Source: a virus
Direction: 5' to 3' (one strand)
DNA length: 51,571 bases
IMG/VR virus record: IMGVR_UViG_3300050821_002877
Span: 1-51,571 of that record
Shown one piece after another: positions 13,494 to 51,571 of the stretch; the first letter of the stretch is position 1, and each line of letters begins with the position of its first letter. Both the position numbers and the translations under genes were made by a program. The notes beneath the pieces are model-generated. The model saw nothing but the letters and a program-made list of their open reading frames with translations. It did no database searches and had not been told where the DNA came from.

Positions 13494-14729
13494 TTGTCCC
13501 GTCTTTTAAAGAAAGCATGGCTCGATAGTTTTCTTGATTATACTGCACATACCGAGACTCCCAGAGAGTATCTTTTATGGGGTGGAATAAGTACAATATC
13601 TAGTGCTCTTAAAAGAAATATATTTATTTGGTATTACGACACACAGATCACAGCGAATCAATATATTATCCTTGTTGGTCCTCCCGGGATCGGAAAAGGT
13701 GTCGCAATATCTAAGGGTTTTGGAATTGCTAGAAAAGCTAAGGCAATCAATTATATCAAGAACTGGCACACGCCGCAAGAAGTAATAGAGAAGATCGCGG
13801 AAGGATTTTCCACAGTAACACTCAAGCCCGGCCAAGTAGTCACGGCGAATATGAAGATGGATCATACGGCATGTATAGTAGCACCAGAGTTGGCCGTATT
13901 TCTACAAAATTATGAGAATCTTCATAGTCTCCTTTGTGATCTATGGGACCAGAAGGAGTTCGATTATGGGACTCGTAACAAGGGTAAGTTCCAGATTGAA
14001 GACATGTCTGTTAGTCTTCTTGGAGGATGTGTTCCTGATTATGTACGAAATTTTAGTAAAGACAGACTGGCTCCTATTACTGGCGGGTTTACTGCTCGTA
14101 CTATATTTGTGTATGCTTCTGAGAAGTATCAATTAGTAGATAATAATTTTGGTTCTCCGACAACAGTTATTAGTCAATTAGAAAATGATCTTATTAATGA
14201 TCTAGCCCACATATCAACCCTGAAAGGAGAGGTAAAACTTGACAAAAAAGCAGTCCCACTCTGGGAAGAAACATATAAAAAACATAATGCAAGGGGAAAT
14301 ATTGATAGTGACGCTAGTCAGAACTTCAAAAGCAGAATTAGTACCCACATTATCAAAACCGCCTTGTCAGTCAGTCTTTCTGAATCAGATAGTCTCATCA
14401 TCACAAAAGATCAGTTACAGCGAGCTATTGGATATGTTGAAGGAGTCAGAGATAAGGTTGATGTTGTGTTCAGATGTATTGGCGAAAGTCCACTTGCCGT
14501 TGCAATGAGTAAGGCACAAGCATATATAGATGCGGTTGGGATGTGTAGTTATAAAACTTTATTGAAGTATATGTATAGAGATTCCACAGAAGATCAATTA
14601 AATGCAATAGTGACAGTTCTGGAAAAGACTGGATTAATTATTACAAAAATTGATCTGAATGGAAATTTGATGTATTGGAGTACTAGTACAGGGAATGGAA
14701 GTAATCCACATAAAGGAGTTGGACCATAA
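13494..14729 (+). CDS. DUF3987-like P-loop replication protein/helicase
   Basis: The N-terminal pattern (WLDSFLDYTAHTETPREYLLWGGISTISSALKRNIF) leads into Walker A GPPGIGKG (residues about 62-69) and an ELAVFL strand, as in phage DUF3987-type primase/helicase proteins. There is no ATG; the only start before the conserved region is TTG, after two in-frame TAA stops that end the HNH gene. The stop overlaps the next start (ATGA). The likely job is replication initiation or helicase activity. Confidence 0.75.
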   Translation: MSRLLKKAWLDSFLDYTAHTETPREYLLWGGISTISSALKRNIFIWYYDTQITANQYIILVGPPGIGKGVAISKGFGIARKAKAINYIKNWHTPQEVIEKIAEGFSTVTLKPGQVVTANMKMDHTACIVAPELAVFLQNYENLHSLLCDLWDQKEFDYGTRNKGKFQIEDMSVSLLGGCVPDYVRNFSKDRLAPITGGFTARTIFVYASEKYQLVDNNFGSPTTVISQLENDLINDLAHISTLKGEVKLDKKAVPLWEETYKKHNARGNIDSDASQNFKSRISTHIIKTALSVSLSESDSLIITKDQLQRAIGYVEGVRDKVDVVFRCIGESPLAVAMSKAQAYIDAVGMCSYKTLLKYMYRDSTEDQLNAIVTVLEKTGLIITKIDLNGNLMYWSTSTGNGSNPHKGVGP

Positions 14730-15442
14730 TGACAAGACCTGTATATAAAATATGTATTCAATGTGGTGGTGAAGTAGATTTTGATACAAATAAATGTATA
14801 TTATGCGGTGAGGATAATAGCAATACTCCTAGATTGAAAAATATTCCTTTTCATAATACATTATTACAAAATAAACAGCCTATAAATTCTCAATGGGCCG
14901 TTATAAAAGATCAGTATATGATTTCTCCCATTTATGGCGGAAATGGACGTGTTCTCGTCCAAGAAAATCCCTTCAAGAGTAAATTCGATTGCAGTAAATG
15001 TGGTGGCCAGAAACATCTCGGTATAACTTGTCCACGTTGCGAAGGTACAAAATTAGTAAAAGGTGATGACTGTTGGGAATGTGAAGTTGCCTCCGAGCGT
15101 ACATCAAATGTCATGGGCGGTAAGATTTCTATAGGCTTTGTACCATGTGACCAATGTCATGGTACAGGAGGGACGATCGTAATCCCGGAAGAAAATCAAA
15201 GAAATACTCAGACAGGAAAAGTTTTGGCTGTTAGTGATCGAGAGATATTAGAAGTAAAGATTGGAGAAGACGTGATGTTTACTAGTTTTTCTGGAAGTCC
15301 CTTCAAGTTCCTTGATATTGATCTAAGGATTATTATTGAAAGGGATTTACTAGGAAAAGTTAAGCAACTTAAGAAGAATGTAGATGGATTAAATGAGGGC
15401 ACCTTTGCTGCTCTGGAAAATACAGGTACCCCCCGTGAATGA
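14729..15442 (+). CDS. GroES-like co-chaperonin with DnaJ-type zinc finger inserted
   Basis: There are three modules. A zinc ribbon occupies residues 9-26 (C9, C12, C23, C26). A GroES-like first strand (GRVLVQENPF, about 73-82) then breaks into a DnaJ-type Cys-rich domain with four CxxC pairs (C88/91, C101/104, C115/118, C140/143, the last CDQCHGTG). The GroES pattern resumes as GGTIVIPEENQ, TGKVLAVSD, VKIGEDVMFTSFSG and IIIERDLLGKV. IVI (150-152) aligns with the GroEL-binding IVL of the GroES mobile loop. It probably caps the host chaperonin or targets substrates. It is the last large gene of the early unit. Confidence 0.75.
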   Translation: MTRPVYKICIQCGGEVDFDTNKCILCGEDNSNTPRLKNIPFHNTLLQNKQPINSQWAVIKDQYMISPIYGGNGRVLVQENPFKSKFDCSKCGGQKHLGITCPRCEGTKLVKGDDCWECEVASERTSNVMGGKISIGFVPCDQCHGTGGTIVIPEENQRNTQTGKVLAVSDREILEVKIGEDVMFTSFSGSPFKFLDIDLRIIIERDLLGKVKQLKKNVDGLNEGTFAALENTGTPRE

Positions 15443-15539
15443 ATTAATACCGGAATTGAAAGGTTTAATTGATGCTATCACTGGATTTATAGTAGTTTAT
15501 ACATTTTTAACAATCTGGAGATTATTTTCAGGTGATTGA
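15435..15539 (+). CDS. Putative 34-aa single-pass membrane peptide
   Basis: A GTG start overlaps the end of the GroES-like gene by 8 bases and the frame runs to two bases before the convergent fibre gene. One hydrophobic helix is evident (LIDAITGFIVVYTFLTIWRLF). There is no clear ribosome site, so the evidence is modest. The plus- and minus-strand units converge here and no bidirectional terminator is visible. Confidence 0.35.
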   Translation: MNELIPELKGLIDAITGFIVVYTFLTIWRLFSGD

Positions 15540-28127: not shown

Positions 28128-29471
28128 TTATCCTGTGAAACAATATCTTGTATGTCCAGTATATGTTGTATTCGATTTAAACTCTGCTTGCCATGAATCA
28201 TCCTCTATAGCATAATTCCATATCTTTGTCCCATTATTCTGAGGGATAGCGAGTCTATAATGATTATAAATATAATTTAATTGGTAATATGGAATAATTG
28301 TCCCTATTGGATTTCCAATAGCAAGATTGATATCATTGTATATAGCATCTCTTGCTGCACCGCCAATACGCTTAAAGCCTCCAAGAGAAACATTATAGAT
28401 ATCATCACTGGATATAAATATACCTAATGGCCCATATGCAGAATATCCAAATGGTAATATATTCCCTATCCCACGATCACTGGCCCAGAGATGATTAAAA
28501 TTAAATGGATTTATCCCCACACCAGTACTAGTTACTTCTGTTATTCCATTCTGTCTCAATATGAATGCCGTTGTTCCGACAGTTAAGGCGCCAAATATAC
28601 TATCCGCAACATCGAGTTCATCATTAAATCCTGCTCCGATATTAACATTCGGATCCCATATAGTCGGGAGTCCTGATGGTGTCCATCGAATACGTTGTGG
28701 GAAATTACCACCACTAGATTCTACAGTATTCAACATCAATAACTGTGCATTCAATTCTATCAGAAAATATGCCCCCGCCGTTACTCCATTCGTAGCATCC
28801 ACCATCCCGACCGCGCTAAATCCATTAGAAGCCGCTGGTTTTCCTCCCATTGTCCATATTATAGGAGTTGTACCAGGATCAGATGTTGTACCAGACAAAG
28901 TGATATTCCATATAGGAATAGTTCCCCCACTAATCCCAGCATTTCCTGCAATTTCTACATTTCCATTACCATCGAGTATTTGTGCCCCTTGTTTATAGGC
29001 AGTATTCTTCCGCCATATAGAAGGAGCACCAACAGAAGTAATTCCATCCCATGACCAGATATTTGTCCCACCATTCGTCCAGAATAATTTATTTACAAAT
29101 ACTTGTACTGCCGCGGGATTTATCGGTCCTGGTTGTATTGGAAATGATCCAATAAGACTCCATACTTTGTCTGGCTTAGACTTATTCTTTAACCACTGAC
29201 TATTAAGTTGCCATAGACCAGTTGGCGTTACAGCACATGTATGATACACATTATTACTATCAATAAATGAAGTAATAAATAACATTGTTTTTCCATCAGG
29301 AGGACCAGGGATATATAATGATTGATTTGGCCGTGTACGGATTTCTCCATTCTTTAGAATAAAATTAACCATAAAAGGAGAAAAATCTGGAGTAAGTTGA
29401 TCCTCTGGAGTACTTACATTTACTCCTCTCCACGGTCCCTTATATTTTTGTTCAAAATAATTTTTAGACAT
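28128..29471 (-). CDS. Beta-propeller tail nozzle/stabilisation protein, 447 aa
   Basis: Repeated beta blades with W-x-W/NGG turns (KLFWTNGGTNIWSWDG, PQRIRWTPSGLPTIWDP, GFNDELDVADSIFGALTVGTTAFILRQNGITEVT) match the phage tail propeller found at the podovirus nozzle (P22 gp10/T7 gp12-like position). It overlaps the exported gene upstream by 8 bases. Likely a ring at the tail tip. Confidence 0.7.
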   Translation of the reverse strand: MSKNYFEQKYKGPWRGVNVSTPEDQLTPDFSPFMVNFILKNGEIRTRPNQSLYIPGPPDGKTMLFITSFIDSNNVYHTCAVTPTGLWQLNSQWLKNKSKPDKVWSLIGSFPIQPGPINPAAVQVFVNKLFWTNGGTNIWSWDGITSVGAPSIWRKNTAYKQGAQILDGNGNVEIAGNAGISGGTIPIWNITLSGTTSDPGTTPIIWTMGGKPAASNGFSAVGMVDATNGVTAGAYFLIELNAQLLMLNTVESSGGNFPQRIRWTPSGLPTIWDPNVNIGAGFNDELDVADSIFGALTVGTTAFILRQNGITEVTSTGVGINPFNFNHLWASDRGIGNILPFGYSAYGPLGIFISSDDIYNVSLGGFKRIGGAARDAIYNDINLAIGNPIGTIIPYYQLNYIYNHYRLAIPQNNGTKIWNYAIEDDSWQAEFKSNTTYTGHTRYCFTG

Positions 29472-30987
29472 AATATACTATTCTCGATAATAGTATTCTC
29501 GCAAACATCCCTATTGCTGGTGCTGGTGGTTGTTGCCAGTCTAGGGCGAGAATAAATGTATCACTTCGACAATTAGTTAATGCTGTACAACTACTCCCAC
29601 CAGAAGTAGATCCAAGAGTATTATTCATCGGAGATGTAAATAAGTACCATCTCCCATCTTGAGATATTGATCCTATCGCATTTTCACCATCAAATGATTG
29701 TGTTGGTAATGAATATGTATGCCCAAATCTAAGTATTATGCCAGACTTGGCTATATTTGTCGGTGGATATATCCCAAGTATTTCATTTACGTCACAAAAT
29801 GTATAACTTGGATTTGATGCTATTGTCGTACTTGTCCAGAAAAATGGCTCTTGATCACTGCCTTTATTATTATACCATCCCCCATGACCATCAAAAGGCG
29901 TAATAATACCAGAACATTGACTAGCTGGAACCGATGTTGGTGTTGTTAATGACGTAACTGGTCGCCCGGCCCAAAAACCATTATTATAATTATTAATTAA
30001 TTCTGTCACGCCAGAATCTATATGGTGTCCTCCACATTGCGTTAATGATGGCCCACACCATGCCCAGACATTAGTAGTCCCACGTTGCCATATATATGGA
30101 CTAGCACCATTATAACATGTCCCATCGCAAGTCTGGATAATAACTATAATATATTGTTCCCCAACTATACCTACATTATGTATACTAAATGTCCCCGGAT
30201 TAGTCGCTCCACCAGTACAATTTTGACAAACAACTGGTCCAGTAGTACCATAATCTCCTGTAATTACTCCAGTAGATGTATTATAGGCTGAACATCCTAC
30301 TCCAGGTGTATATGCCGCTATATATCGTCCTGTTCCTTGTGATGCACTAGTAGAGAATCCATTTGCAAATGTACCATCTGTAGACGATACTGCTGGTGGG
30401 TCAGTTGGATGAATAAATGTATTTGGTATACATGTGGCACTAAAATCATAAATAGTAACACCAGTTGGAGGAGAAGAACTTCCCATATTCCAAGTTTTTA
30501 ATACTGGTCCATCAGCAGATGATGCTGCACTAGCCATTGCATAAAATGGATCTTCAAAAACACGAGAAAAATTTCCACCATTCGTTAGATCAGTTATTCC
30601 AGAGATAGTACTATATTTTAATGTTGGAGTAATTGTATTTGCATTAAAATCATAGAAAAAATGTGCTCCGCCACTACTAGACAAGTAAAAGTGTTTTGAT
30701 GTCTTACTCCAATGATTCCTATCTCCAGAGCCACTAAAATCGGCTACCATACTTTGATTAGATCGAGTATTTGCATCTGTTACTCGTTCTATAGGAAGAT
30801 GAAAAGCTCCAGAATTATTCCCACCACTTACTGGCTCTGGATCAAATACTATTGTCCCTGATCCAGTCAAACCTGAAAATGGTGCTATCGCTGGAGGAGG
30901 GATAGTTGCAGTACTAGTACTAGCACCAAGATAAGATTGGGCATATGATGACGTTACTAAAACTAAAATGAATAATAATCGCTTCAT
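29464..30987 (-). CDS. Exported beta-propeller-like protein, 507 aa
   Basis: It has a Sec signal peptide MKRLLFILVLVTSSYA, then QSYLG. The mature part is beta-rich with repeats of FYLSSSGGAHFFYDFN-like strands and several close Cys pairs (CQNC, CDGTC, CGPSLTQC), consistent with folding and disulfide formation outside the cytoplasm. It lies in the tail-gene cluster. It may be a receptor-binding or secreted decoy protein. Confidence 0.7.
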   Translation of the reverse strand: MKRLLFILVLVTSSYAQSYLGASTSTATIPPPAIAPFSGLTGSGTIVFDPEPVSGGNNSGAFHLPIERVTDANTRSNQSMVADFSGSGDRNHWSKTSKHFYLSSSGGAHFFYDFNANTITPTLKYSTISGITDLTNGGNFSRVFEDPFYAMASAASSADGPVLKTWNMGSSSPPTGVTIYDFSATCIPNTFIHPTDPPAVSSTDGTFANGFSTSASQGTGRYIAAYTPGVGCSAYNTSTGVITGDYGTTGPVVCQNCTGGATNPGTFSIHNVGIVGEQYIIVIIQTCDGTCYNGASPYIWQRGTTNVWAWCGPSLTQCGGHHIDSGVTELINNYNNGFWAGRPVTSLTTPTSVPASQCSGIITPFDGHGGWYNNKGSDQEPFFWTSTTIASNPSYTFCDVNEILGIYPPTNIAKSGIILRFGHTYSLPTQSFDGENAIGSISQDGRWYLFTSPMNNTLGSTSGGSSCTALTNCRSDTFILALDWQQPPAPAIGMFARILLSRIVYYV

Positions 30988-35731: not shown

Positions 35732-36029
35732 ACTTAAATGCTGGTTTCCATTCAGGACTTCTTTGTACATCAACCTTCTTATCAAATGGACTCCACTTCT
35801 CACCTCTTACAGGACTAACTCTCGTATCACTTCCAGGTGCAGTTGATTGACTAGAATAATGTGGTTCTTTCCCATGATGAACTAGATGATTATCAAACTG
35901 ACTTTTCGCTGCCGCTTCTGTTCCCATCCTAGTCTGAAAACCACACTTACATTCAACATAATGCCGATATTGCTCATAACTATTCGGCTGATATTCATAC
36001 ATAACAAGCCCATGTTCAATCAAAGCCAT
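35730..36029 (-). CDS. C2H2-like zinc-finger protein, 99 aa
   Basis: ECKCGFQTRMGTEAAAKSQFDNHLVHHG gives two Cys and spaced His ligands of a C2H2-like finger. The C-terminus is basic and disordered-looking. An AAAGGAG-type site precedes the ATG. Function unknown. Confidence 0.65.
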   Translation of the reverse strand: MALIEHGLVMYEYQPNSYEQYRHYVECKCGFQTRMGTEAAAKSQFDNHLVHHGKEPHYSSQSTAPGSDTRVSPVRGEKWSPFDKKVDVQRSPEWKPAFK

Positions 36030-44158: not shown

Positions 44159-46038
44159 TAATATCCTGTAATAGCAGATCGTCCAGAATTACTTCGTGAA
44201 TTGATAAGCATCTTCTGTTGATTATGTACAAACAAATCTGTTTCTTCCTCACTCATATGAGATAAATCAAGATTTTGAATCCCGTGTCCAAGAATATCTA
44301 AGATATCACGAGTTGCACAATGAGGATATTCGTTGTATTCTTCGAGGAATTTTTGTGTAAATCCTTCTCCTGCATTTTGACAAATCCAGATTTGCCCGCG
44401 ACGAAAAAATGGCTCTGTGTCTTCAATACGATCACTTTTGGCATTCGCATTCCTGTTGTCTTTGAACTCATTTATCTGCCTAAAAAACCACTTGCCAAGT
44501 GATTGTCTTGTTTTATCTTCTACCTCAAATGCTGTCTTACACCATGTTTGTCCAGCGCTTATTTCTACCCATATTTCCCTTACGCGCCACTTTTCCGCCA
44601 TAACATATGCATGATGCATGATATCTTCTCGACTACATGTATCAGCGCGGCCATCGAGAATATACAGATTTGTAGGAGTATTATTAATCCCAAGTAACAT
44701 AAGAGCATGATTCGCACGACCTTCTTCGCCCTTGTGATTTGGATCTAACATCAACATCTTAGATAAGGATGATGTTGGGATATCTTTAGGAAGAATACCA
44801 TTATTCATCTCATGGCGAATAGTCATATGACGTTTCGAGACTAATTCATCTGAGGGAATAATACGATAGCCCATTGTTCCAAATGTACCAGAAGGACCAA
44901 GAGGGATATTTAGTTCGTCTTTTTGAAAAGATTGTGCATGTTTTTGAACTACTGTTGGAATTAATACAAAGTATCGTAACCACTCGGACTTAAAGGTATT
45001 ACCGCCAGGGGGAATAGGTTTGTTGCGAAATTGGCAACTGTAAAAGTATTCTCCCAATCTTGACCGCATTCTACTAAGTTTCGCAATAGACCATTCCTCT
45101 GGGAATATTGGAGTATTGGTTGGATGAAGATCACAACATCCCCCTTCAGCATCATGAGTATGAAAACGGAAATAAGGAAGTTCTTTCTTTATCTTCCAAT
45201 TAAGATCATGGAAGGACCACCTATTACCATTTACAACCTCATCGCATTCACTCTCTGGATCATCGGGATCACTATCGAAAGCGCCTACGGCTAATTGGAA
45301 CCATTCCCATGTGGATAATGCTACTAATTCTGACTTAAGAGCATCTTTTCCATACAAATCATCATAGATAATGCGCCGATAGTGTTTTGATTGGAGAGCA
45401 GCATCAACACCAGTAAATTCAAATGTACCTTCTCCTTGATTGGCATCACTTCTAGAATAGTCTCTCTTGTGTGTCATTGTATCCGCTGACCACTGACAAG
45501 AGGAATCTGGCATTATTTCAGGGAATAATTTCTGAAATAATTGATTATGCTTATATTCATTCGATATTTTCTTTCCAATCTTCCATGAGTTCTTAATTGT
45601 CTCCATCGCAATAAGAGTACGTGTATTCTGATCATGTACTCTTTTCATCCAAGTGATCCACTCATCACCATATCCGAGAGATCGCATGAACTTTTCATCA
45701 CGATCCGTGAATGGTAATGCCCACCAAATGGGCATACCAATACTACCAATAGTAGTTTTGAAATGATCTCTAGGGATTTCATTTACTTCTTTTAATTGCC
45801 AACAAAGGAGAGTATCGCAGAATTGACGATGAAAAACATTAGACAAGCGGCGCTTACGAAGAATAATCTTAATAAAGTAGAAATTATCCCCTAATGCATT
45901 AAGACGATGAGCTAAGTTCTGGACGTATGGATTATTTGCTACTGGAGGGATATTATTCCACTTATAGGCAAAACTTGTCCTATTAATCTCTTGTACAAGG
46001 TCGATCTGTGGACTATCGAGGACTTCATTATCTAACAT
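44158..46038 (-). CDS. Terminase large subunit, 626 aa
   Basis: ATPase domain with a Walker A-like PRDHFKTT (89-96) and Walker B IIYDD (223-227); the nuclease domain begins at LMLDPNHKG (D432) and includes DRIEDTEPFFRRGQIW. It cuts and packages DNA into the procapsid through the portal. The endonuclease VII gene overlaps its start by 7 bases. Confidence 0.92.
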   Translation of the reverse strand: MLDNEVLDSPQIDLVQEINRTSFAYKWNNIPPVANNPYVQNLAHRLNALGDNFYFIKIILRKRRLSNVFHRQFCDTLLCWQLKEVNEIPRDHFKTTIGSIGMPIWWALPFTDRDEKFMRSLGYGDEWITWMKRVHDQNTRTLIAMETIKNSWKIGKKISNEYKHNQLFQKLFPEIMPDSSCQWSADTMTHKRDYSRSDANQGEGTFEFTGVDAALQSKHYRRIIYDDLYGKDALKSELVALSTWEWFQLAVGAFDSDPDDPESECDEVVNGNRWSFHDLNWKIKKELPYFRFHTHDAEGGCCDLHPTNTPIFPEEWSIAKLSRMRSRLGEYFYSCQFRNKPIPPGGNTFKSEWLRYFVLIPTVVQKHAQSFQKDELNIPLGPSGTFGTMGYRIIPSDELVSKRHMTIRHEMNNGILPKDIPTSSLSKMLMLDPNHKGEEGRANHALMLLGINNTPTNLYILDGRADTCSREDIMHHAYVMAEKWRVREIWVEISAGQTWCKTAFEVEDKTRQSLGKWFFRQINEFKDNRNANAKSDRIEDTEPFFRRGQIWICQNAGEGFTQKFLEEYNEYPHCATRDILDILGHGIQNLDLSHMSEEETDLFVHNQQKMLINSRSNSGRSAITGY

Positions 46039-46388
46039 TTAGATTTGATAAATGGAGGAGGTAATCTTCCAGAAATACTACCTATAACTTCACCTTTTAA
46101 TTCTTTTACATTACTACCACCAAAATAAGAATATTTTACGTTAGTATTACATTGTAAATGATATTCTATACGTAATTTAAAAGTTCTTAACCACAACCAA
46201 TAAGAACTCTTTTTAAAATAATGTATATATTTATTAGTAGATTCATACATTCCTAATCTTTCATTACATACATCACATAACCATCCACGTATAAATCCAG
46301 TTTTATGATTATGATCTCTAACTAATCTTTTTGTTTTTGTCTCAGCTTCTAACTTACCACAGATATTACAATATATTGATTTTACCAT
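46032..46388 (-). CDS. Endonuclease VII-like HNH (treble clef) protein, 118 aa
   Basis: YCNICG (C7, C10), LVRDHNHKTGFIRGWLC and CDVCNERLG (C38, C41) are the recombination endonuclease VII signature. It lies between small and large terminase genes, a common site for free-standing HNH genes. It is very AT-rich and has no good ribosome site; a strongly structured region precedes it. It may be a homing gene or help resolve DNA branches before packaging. Confidence 0.8.
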   Translation of the reverse strand: MVKSIYCNICGKLEAETKTKRLVRDHNHKTGFIRGWLCDVCNERLGMYESTNKYIHYFKKSSYWLWLRTFKLRIEYHLQCNTNVKYSYFGGSNVKELKGEVIGSISGRLPPPFIKSKC

Positions 46389-47329: not shown

Positions 47330-47737
47330 AGCCAATGCCCTTCTTATCGGCGTCTACCGGACCACTCATGCACTTTTGGAAGTCTATCCTTTATATGTAT
47401 GAATGTCCAGAGAATAATTCCAGTGATTCCCGTTGTTTACAAAGGACATACGAATTATTTTCCCTTCTCCAGACATGTGCTAATCTGTAAACAAACCCGC
47501 GTCCCCAACCGGCCCCCATTCCATTACAAAATCATCTCAACTATAAAATCACCAACATTCCTTACATTATTAATACTCAAAGTATCATTAATAGACATCA
47601 TCTTTGACTCACTGGTATTTTTATTTTTTTATAAAAAATTTTTGTGTAACGTCTCGCCCGCCGATCACTAACTTTGTGATACAAAGTGGTCGCCTGGGCA
47701 AAGGGCATAATGTCGAGTAATATGATAGACTTACTTG

Positions 47738-48147: not shown

Positions 48148-48176
48148 AGCCGAAGTTTTATCCTCATACACTGTGC

Positions 48177-48311
48177 TATAGCAGATATGAGATGATAGAT
48201 AGGAGTATCGTTACTCCATGCACTAACGAGTTAGCCTTGAGTATATCTCTCATATTCAAGGGAGAGACTAACAGAACCTTCTATCATCTCTTACCTGCTA
48301 TATCATAGCAG
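48177..48311 (+). promoter_or_regulatory. Multi-helix leader RNA with pseudoknot and ribosome-site switch
   Basis: P1 TATAGCAG/CTGCTATA (48177-48184/48295-48302), P2 11 bp GAGATGATAGA/TCTATCATCTC (48189-48199/48280-48290), P3 GGAGTA/TACTCC, P4 CTAA/TTAG and P5 CTTGAGTAT/ATATTCAAG make a junction. Loop 5 TCTCTC pairs with GAGAGA (48246-48251/48262-48267). The 3' half of P1 can instead pair with ATAGCAG at 48305-48311, right before AGAGGAG of the next gene. Confidence 0.7.
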
Positions 48312-48328
48312 AAAGAGGAGAAAACATC

Positions 48329-48763: not shown

Positions 48764-48796
48764 TAACTCTGTTATAGCATGGTGTAGGAGGATAAA

Positions 48797-49060
48797 ATGT
48801 CCACACGTGAACAAGAAAGAACATCATACGAAGAAGGCAAAATAATGAACATCCCCACTCCAAAGATCAGAAACAAGACAAATCTTGTTATGATCAACAC
48901 GCCAGTTCGTAATGAGACTGGGCGCTTTGTATTCAGGCAATGCCGTCCAGTTCTTCACACAGAACCCGCAAAGATTATTATGTTCCCAACATCCCACGAT
49001 ATTGAGAACAGACTTCGCCATAACCTTCGTATGATTAATATAACCCGTGGTATCTATTAG
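48797..49060 (+). CDS. Hypothetical basic protein, 87 aa
   Basis: AGGAGG precedes the ATG by 6 bases. The sequence (IPTPKIRNKTNLVMINTPVRNETGRFVFRQCRPV) is basic and beta-prone. No family recognised. A long hairpin begins 4 bases after its stop. Confidence 0.7.
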   Translation: MSTREQERTSYEEGKIMNIPTPKIRNKTNLVMINTPVRNETGRFVFRQCRPVLHTEPAKIIMFPTSHDIENRLRHNLRMINITRGIY

Positions 49061-49063
49061 ACC

Positions 49064-49123
49064 ATGCGGCTTAGAACGATACAATTATTATCATCATAGA
49101 CCTTGTATCGTTCTATGCAGCAT
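49064..49123. repeat. Long hairpin after the 87-aa gene
   Basis: A perfect 13-bp stem TAGAACGATACAA/TTGTATCGTTCTA (49072-49084/49103-49115) extends outward through GC and ATGC/GCAT with two mismatched positions. There is no U-run. Likely an mRNA 3'-end stabiliser or processing site. Confidence 0.6.
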
Positions 49124-49135
49124 TATCTGATCGCT

Positions 49136-49580
49136 CTGAACATCATAGCGTTAACTAAGTTCGTTCTGGGGGGAGTAATACTCAACGCAAATGATTGAAA
49201 ACACATGAGTTACCCCCCAAATGATTGCTATGTTCGCACCTTGCTTACAGATGACACCCCCCTTGTGCACGCTGCGAATCTTTGTCATGGGGGGTGCCTG
49301 CGATTTTTGGTTCGTTAATCGTTCCTTGTAACTGTCTGGCTCACTGTAACTGATCTCGTTCCTAGATCATAGATCTATCACACACAAAATTTCCATCATA
49401 CAGAACCTAAATTCGCCCGGGAACCCGGAGATAAAGATTCGCAGGAGAAGCATGGGGGGTGTTATCTGTAGGGGAGGAGGATTTTAGAGTGTGAAATCAC
49501 CCCTATGTCCTTTGGATTCAATGATTTGCAGTGAGTATTACTCCCTACAAAAAGAACTTGACAAACGCAATGAAGTTCAG
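49136..49580. repeat. 445-bp imperfect palindrome with one symmetry axis
   Basis: Arms 49136-49199 and 49517-49580 match at about 80 percent as inverted copies, including a perfect 14-mer GGGAGTAATACTCA/TGAGTATTACTCCC. Inner blocks CAGATGACACCCCCC/GGGGGGTGTTATCTG (49248-49262/49454-49468, one G-U) and CTGCGAATCTTT/AAAGATTCGCAG (49272-49283/49433-49444) share the same centre near 49358. G6/C6 tracts occur five times. No gene is seen from 49061 to 49819. Confidence 0.8.
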
Positions 49581-49587
49581 GTAGACT
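49558..49587 (+). promoter_or_regulatory. Sigma70-like promoter TTGACA-18-TAGACT
   Basis: Perfect -35 and a 4-of-6 -10. It lies in the right palindrome arm, 12 bases after the palindromic GAGTATTACTC operator candidate. In the left arm the -35 is replaced by TTAGTT, so only this copy should be active. It would drive the zinc-finger gene and the rest of the early unit. Confidence 0.55.
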
Positions 49588-49649
49588 TGTTAATGACTGG
49601 TATTAATAGGCTGGAGTAAACTATGAAAACGGGATCACTTAATAGTACA

Positions 49650-49800: not shown

Positions 49801-49819
49801 AGCCATTAATGTGTTTACT

Positions 49820-50506
49820 ATGAGTGGAAAGAAAAAGAAGAAAATAAGATCTAAGGAATACCTGAGAAGAAAAATGGAGACAAGAAAAAGACGTAGACAA
49901 CAGAATCATGTTTATTATGAGAGTAATTGCGTGATATGTTTCAAGCCATTTGTACATGATAGATTGACTGCGATGTATTGTAGTCAGGCATGTCGGAATA
50001 AATCACGTTCATTCCCGGCAAAATTTCTGGAATCAATGTATAAGAAGGCGAATCTTACATTGAAAAGATATGATCGAACGCCGGAGGCGATGCAAGAATA
50101 TATTAAGTCATTGCCTATAAAAGATGCTCTCAAGGAGAGTTTAAAGGATATGAAAGAAGAATTTAAAATCCTTGGCTTTCAGGATTCTGATATATCTGAA
50201 ATGGATAAAGAGATTGAAAGACTCAAAGCACAAAGACGTATAACAGAACGAAGAAATGCAATGAGTCAACAGGATAGTACTGGATTTATAACAACAGAAG
50301 AATCTAACACTTCAGAATCATCTGAATTAATTGATCCAGAGATGAGAGAATTTAAATTAGATGAGATTGATGATAGAAATGCCCAAATTGATTCAATGGT
50401 GTTAGCAGATGAACCATGTCCTGATTGTGGTTCAAATCATCACAAAAGTTGTAATCAAAAGCCAAAGAAATATAAAATCCGCAAGATTGGAGAGAAAAAT
50501 GGCTAA
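49820..50506 (+). CDS. Zinc-finger protein with two Cys clusters, 228 aa
   Basis: A Lys/Arg-rich N-terminus leads to CVICFKPFVHDRLTAMYCSQACR, a treble-clef-like finger common in phage proteins; long helices and an acidic Ser/Thr/Glu stretch follow, then CPDCGSNHHKSC near the end. A GTG start lies three codons upstream in frame. There is no clear ribosome site. Probably nucleic-acid binding. Confidence 0.75.
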   Translation: MSGKKKKKIRSKEYLRRKMETRKRRRQQNHVYYESNCVICFKPFVHDRLTAMYCSQACRNKSRSFPAKFLESMYKKANLTLKRYDRTPEAMQEYIKSLPIKDALKESLKDMKEEFKILGFQDSDISEMDKEIERLKAQRRITERRNAMSQQDSTGFITTEESNTSESSELIDPEMREFKLDEIDDRNAQIDSMVLADEPCPDCGSNHHKSCNQKPKKYKIRKIGEKNG

Positions 50507-51425: not shown

Positions 51426-51571
51426 TGATAGAAATCACGTCTTGCTGCCAATATTTCCCAAAGTGGTGTGCTATTTTTGCTCCTTTCGGCGCTGCTGGAA
51501 TTTGGTGGAGTTGGGACAATATTCGCCGAGAACGCCGCCTGCCTTTGAGCCTGAGCGTGTTTTGCATTAGT
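51422..51571 (+). CDS. 5' part of junction-spanning small membrane protein
   Basis: ATGA overlap with the zinc-ribbon stop. The first 50 codons (MMIEITSCCQYFPKWCAIF...) have a hydrophobic Trp-rich segment (CAIFAPFGAAGIWWSW) and a basic turn (RRERR). After the 80-bp overlap the frame continues at base 81 of the window to a TGA at 123-125, giving 64 aa. Confidence 0.6.
   Translation, partial: MMIEITSCCQYFPKWCAIFAPFGAAGIWWSWDNIRRERRLPLSLSVFCIS
51492..51571. repeat. Right copy of 80-bp terminal direct repeat
   Basis: Identical to bases 1-80; see the left copy. It closes the circle. Confidence 0.97.

Follow-up and report, generated by a model that had tools for sequence, protein, structure and literature searches.

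A mirror-symmetric dyad with a single early promoter as a candidate replication origin region of a lytic soil phage

The genome of a soil phage contains, in its early region, a large imperfect palindrome (the dyad) that we read, with somewhat more confidence than doubt, as the mirror-symmetric replication origin region of a lytic podovirus-type phage, coupled to a single early promoter. The window, i.e., the whole stretch of DNA analysed, corresponds to a complete virus record (51,571 bases) whose ends overlap by 80 bp. The first-pass annotation of this DNA had proposed a replication origin, a bidirectional control switch or the remains of a transposon-like element. Of these options, the origin is best supported, by the conserved place of the dyad, by its link to a polymerase/primase module, and, in relatives, by mirrored iteron- or IHF-type sites at an AT-rich spot, whereas a transposon remnant is not supported.

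Results

One inverted structure in the early region of the genome

The exact 14-, 12- and 9-mer pairs of the dyad are all centred on 49358.0, which bears out the earlier view that this is one inverted structure and not a set of random repeats; its extent, previously given as 49136-49580, proved slightly too small (Table 1). The extended arm matches cover 88 nt at 73%, 64 nt at 80%, and 68-70 nt at 77%, and a gapped alignment of the arms spans ~20 to ~235 nt on either side of the axis. When the 51.6-kb genome was scanned for ungapped dyads, the centre at 49358 scored 58.3, compared with 21.4 for the runner-up, and is thus the top dyad of the genome; the maximum score of random sequence, from 20 first-order Markov resamplings, was 15-23. 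The folding z-score of the dyad is -9.4 both as DNA and as plus-strand RNA, and -9.3 as minus-strand RNA. The palindrome GAGTA(A/T)TACTC occurs in the window only at 49173, 49533, and 33080. The dyad lies between two plus-strand genes, past a terminator-like hairpin, and one of the close relatives (L009) also has a hairpin at the matching place.

Table 1 Coordinates of the dyad and of adjacent features in the window
Feature	Position	Strand	Size or identity	Remarks
Terminator-like hairpin after the preceding plus-strand genes	49056-49131		74% self-complementary	
Dyad (imperfect palindrome), whole	49121-49595		475 bp	In soil phage genome
Symmetry axis	49358 (49358.0)			
Left arm	49121-49357		~235 nt	Lacks the -35 box
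Right arm	49359-49595		~235 nt	Bears the promoter-like site
Outer arm pair	49121-49208 / 49508-49595		88 nt, 73% identity	
Exact 14-mer GGGAGTAATACTCA, left copy	49171-49184			Contains the 11-bp palindrome GAGTAATACTC
Exact 14-mer, right copy	49532-49545			Contains GAGTATTACTC
Inner left block	49246-49313		77% to 49403-49470	Holds 12-mer 49272-49283 and 9-mer 49254-49262
Inner right block	49403-49470			Holds 12-mer 49433-49444 and 9-mer 49454-49462
Promoter-like TTGACA - 18 nt - TAGACT	49558-49587	+		Right arm only
First conserved downstream gene	49811-50506	+		Zinc-finger-like N-terminus

The late genes run leftward from 47.1 to 15.5 kb, and the early and replication genes run rightward from 48.3 kb through the join of the record to 15.4 kb. 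This plus-strand early block encodes a PolA-type polymerase, a primase, and a Sak4-like ATPase, which puts the dyad among the early genes of a genome that codes for replication proteins, at a place matched in relatives. The 80-bp direct terminal repeat (1-80 and 51492-51571), whose join lies 2.1 kb from the dyad, implies a circular or terminally redundant record. GC skew is lowest at 47672, where gene orientation switches, 1.7 kb from the dyad; it tracks gene orientation and is uninformative for placing an origin. The zinc-finger gene downstream follows the dyad directly in L017 and is separated from it by an HNH-like gene in L009, L010, and L012, and the downstream gene starts ~+220 to +245 from the axis in the four relatives (the start in L009 being read from the sequence).

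Several other features of the genome were recorded. An Endonuclease VII family gene (46032-46388, minus strand; PF02945, E 3.8e-14) lies between the small and large terminase genes; members of this family are cruciform-resolving nucleases. The gene at 14729-15442 (plus strand) combines a weak zinc-ribbon-like N-terminus with a Cpn10 co-chaperonin domain, and phage vir526 likewise carries groS close to its terminase gene. Leader and ribosome-site sequences form inverted repeats that surround the first early gene (48152-48199, 48280-48328, and 48768-48797), and L010 has a similar inverted leader pair flanking its homologous first early gene. An ARAGORN tRNA-Gln call (30459-30550, minus strand), probably a false one, is enclosed by a 507-aa ORF of that strand (29464-30987). 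Within the dyad region, the small ORFs at 49151-49288 (minus strand) and 49491-49619 (plus strand) have SxICxEYYSxQxEL in common, which we judged to be a by-product of the DNA symmetry; a search of the relatives for like-placed related ORFs of at least 45 aa returned none.

Only the right arm carries a promoter-like site

The promoter-like site of the right arm is directed outward from the dyad. The mirrored position in the left arm reads TTAGTT where the right arm has TTGACA (49558), and the same asymmetry recurs in all five close relatives (the window group): TTGACA with a -10-like box occupies +168 to +200 of the right arm, and the mirrored left-arm TTGACA is absent. The annotated asymmetry, with a -35 box in the right copy alone, is therefore borne out. 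As one of the two mirrored promoters is missing and the dyad is nevertheless kept, the purpose of the symmetry is probably not the promoters.

Close relatives keep the place and the symmetry, and change the sequence

Four phages (L009, L012, L010, and L017) have large terminases 65-79% identical to that of the window, and each has its top dyad at the matching place; that of L009 is 430 bp long, with its axis at the most AT-rich 40-mer of the contig. Within each phage, the arms match one another with z-scores of 10-32, whereas the arms of the window align to those of most of the others no better than shuffled sequence does (z ~0; highest 5.5). The arms of L009, L012, and L010 can be aligned with one another, and their outer block is nearly identical in both arms of each phage and differs among the three (TGCTCTAGGCAC, GAAT(C/T)TATCT, and TAAGCTCT). 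Arms that are matched within phages and divergent between them indicate that the symmetry is older than these phages and has been maintained during sequence change. Non-conservation of the arms in relatives had been named beforehand as grounds for dismissing the structure; what the relatives keep is the symmetry and the geometry, and hardly any of the arm sequence. Two zones, 40-115 and 160-215 nt from the axis, tend to show the highest arm identity in the relatives, with lower values at 120-160 nt, and in most of them GC content peaks ~80-100 nt from the axis.

L009 and L012 are 98-99.7% identical over most of both flanks and entirely different across the dyad, the HNH-like gene, and the part of the zinc-finger gene that encodes the N-terminal ~70-80 residues (3624-4974 in L009 and 3624-4819 in L012, in reverse-complement upstream coordinates). 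Judged from the two sequences, this difference is a whole-module exchange, and the exchanged module may pair a DNA-binding domain with its own site.

Dyads at the matching place in distant phages

The GenBank phage ctLwi270 (MW202554), whose terminase is 27% identical to that of the window, has a dyad scoring 46.6 (next, 22) at 35895; its terminase lies 1.35 kb downstream. Two of its relatives, L037 and L036, have their top dyads 1.1-1.3 kb upstream of the terminase, and in a third, L032, the dyad there is the top dyad in the gapped scan only. The phrog_17 polymerase and phrog_14296 primase families are common to the window group and the MW202554 group, and for this reason other phages with that primase were fetched and scanned for dyads. 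In this primase-based set of nine phages, one of them (EBPR3) a partial record, four (ctMlz233, Desulfofustis phage, vir526, and Microcystis phage Mel-JY34) have a clear top dyad where the terminase and early genes meet, and VS-ABTNL-3 and Polaromonas phage Tiera have a weak ungapped top dyad there; 119X, Caulobacter phage Kuura, and the partial EBPR3 record have no clear top dyad at that junction.

As a comparison set, we scanned seven phages (lambda, T7, T1, LUZ24, and three with distant terminase similarity), too few for an estimate of rarity, and in five of the seven the top ungapped dyad scored 14-18. Proteus phage RS51pmB (L028) has a dyad of score 24 (gapped z 12.7) in the non-coding gap 14804-15502, and phage T1 (L050) has an AT-rich top dyad at its left end (1-540), with the AT minimum at 252 beside it. 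These dyads are possibly origins; being non-coding and origin-like, they indicate that the feature is not exclusive to the polymerase/primase module. Searches for direct DNA homologues in the phage collection, for prophage relatives in bacterial genomes, and, with the primase as query, for relatives among viral contigs all returned none.

Origin-type features in the relatives and in the window

In L009, MW202554, L037, L032, ctMlz233, Desulfofustis phage, Mel-JY34, and Tiera, the 40-mer with the lowest GC content in the whole contig or genome coincides with the axis or lies close to it, and an AT-rich core was found in L009, L017, MW202554, L036, L037, L032, and several of the module-sharing phages. 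IHF consensus sites (WATCAANNNNTTR), of which 0.03-0.07 are expected per dyad, are mirrored to within 1 nt in L036 (+96/-96), L037 (+103/-102), and L032. A perfect DnaA box stands 31 nt from the axis in MW202554, and another DnaA box is at -10 in vir526. The arms also contain repeated words specific to each phage, AAAATCAATAGCTT seven times in L032 and AAGAAACGGC six times in L037, and AAATGCA-type words are mirrored in both arms of vir526, as read off the alignment. An AT minimum, IHF and DnaA sites, and word repeats, together with a replication module and no integrase or resolvase, are as expected of a replication origin.

The window itself departs from this picture. Its axis is not AT-rich (the 40-nt GC minimum is 30%, a value reached by 21% of the genome), and an AT-rich axis is also absent in L012 and L010. 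Neither IHF nor DnaA consensus sites were found in the window dyad, and DnaA boxes are not in excess in the window as a whole. A TGGGGGGTGT-like word occurs four times in the window (p 2e-6, uncorrected), clear arrays being confined to L032, L037, and vir526. As the AT-rich core and the IHF and DnaA sites are absent from it, we do not class the window dyad as a member of the iteron-origin type, and the origin reading for the window rests on homology of place and architecture.

Discussion

As a plausible mechanism, a putative initiator, for which the zinc-finger protein encoded downstream is the first candidate in the window group, would bind both arms and open a melting centre at which replication starts, with the right promoter supplying a priming or activating transcript. 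With the arms mirrored, two forks could then be loaded, or each strand could expose a hairpin, and template switching between the arms could help to keep them alike during sequence drift. More generally, the arms may stay alike because one protein reads both, because their pairing is selected, or through template switching, which might be favoured where strands open, as at an origin. Homogenisation of inverted-repeat arms by template switching is documented (PMC8604942).

Among the alternatives, a mirrored transcription-control region would have a phage regulator bind matching operators in both arms, loop the DNA, and switch the right promoter, and fast-evolving protein-operator pairs would hold the two arms alike. 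Such a region fits the TTGACA at +168 to +200 of the right arm in all five relatives, the outer block, which overlaps or abuts the promoter and differs among phages while being near-identical in both arms of one phage, the GAGTA(A/T)TACTC palindromes in both window arms, and the joint exchange of the dyad and the zinc-finger N-terminus between L009 and L012. We nevertheless consider it unlikely, as the ~200 nt of mostly non-repeated sequence that are mirrored go beyond the needs of a few operator copies, a genome-wide AT minimum at the axis would be unexpected, and the phages, having no integrase or resolvase, look lytic. A genome terminus or packaging site, at which concatemers would be cut at the dyad, perhaps through a hairpin end, is a serious rival that we regard as distinctly unlikely. 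A hairpin-end route has been discussed for the cutting of T7 concatemers, lambda cos also uses IHF, and the dyad occupies the junction of terminase genes and early operon that in LUZ24 holds the 184-bp terminal repeats. However, T7 and LUZ24 themselves lack a strong dyad, the contig ends fall outside the dyad, at the 80-bp overlap 2.1 kb away, and pac or cos sites are not known to contain iteron-like words or an extreme AT centre.

A transcribed region acting as a long hairpin would account for the folding z-score of -9.4 as RNA, but such an RNA element is very improbable, given that the arm changes show no G-U wobble bias between strands (38 versus 32), that the arm differences contain no excess of transitions (70 versus 118 transversions), that the promoter-like site is oriented away from the dyad, and that Rfam gave no match. 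Hardly credible, finally, is an inverted duplication or transposon remnant that has no function and owes its symmetry to template switching alone: the homogenising process exists (PMC8604942), but it leaves unexplained why very distant phages have a dyad at the matching place, why the AT minimum is at the axis, and why the IHF sites are mirrored. The dyad keeps its place and not its sequence, which also speaks against the transposon-like remnant of the first-pass annotation, and a scan for resolvase and integrase families found none. Two further identities were tried and rejected: an attP site, tyrosine and serine integrases (PF00589 and PF00239) being absent from nine records, several of them fragments, and a protelomerase telomere site, PF16684 being absent from the window genome in a search whose control was positive.

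Beyond the window, we suggest tentatively, with rather more doubt than confidence, that mirror-symmetric origin regions constitute a widespread class of lytic-phage origin defined by symmetry and not by sequence. Its members would have ~200-nt arms, alike within a genome and subject to near-complete turnover between genomes, a melting axis, and one arm doubling as an early promoter, and the arms would fire divergent forks or form hairpins for the phrog_14296 primase. Our searches of the open-access literature returned no description of such dyads. Since they have no sequence in common, the origins of most lytic phages have not been mapped; if symmetry and place are the conserved signal, a simple dyad scan could locate origins in phage genomes, and the replication start of the polymerase/primase phages would become directly testable. 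Symmetry that persists through near-complete turnover of sequence also offers a clean natural example of co-evolving arms.

Comparison with known systems places the proposed origin near several architectures. Iteron-type theta origins, such as lambda ori and plasmid oriV, resemble the dyad relatives in having an AT-rich zone by repeated initiator sites, IHF or DnaA sites, and a location near early or replication genes, but the repeats of the dyad form two mirrored arms around the AT zone, ~450 bp in total, whereas lambda ori has, according to its annotation, four tandem iterons inside a gene (the O gene) and showed no dyad there in our scan. The N15 telRL/tos telomere site has nested inverted repeats on one axis, as the dyad does, but the window dyad has no perfect central palindrome and its genome no protelomerase. 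The ssiA and ssiB sites of RSF1010, which needs its own RepA, RepB', and RepC, are mirrored single-strand priming sites, and the dyad is similar in comprising two inverted elements that could prime on opposite strands, although its arms are longer. Closest in plan is the herpesvirus oriL, a large palindrome with an AT centre and mirrored initiator boxes, where the boxes likewise flank an AT-rich axis next to promoters; the two are not related, and the phage arms differ in being imperfect and in their fast turnover.
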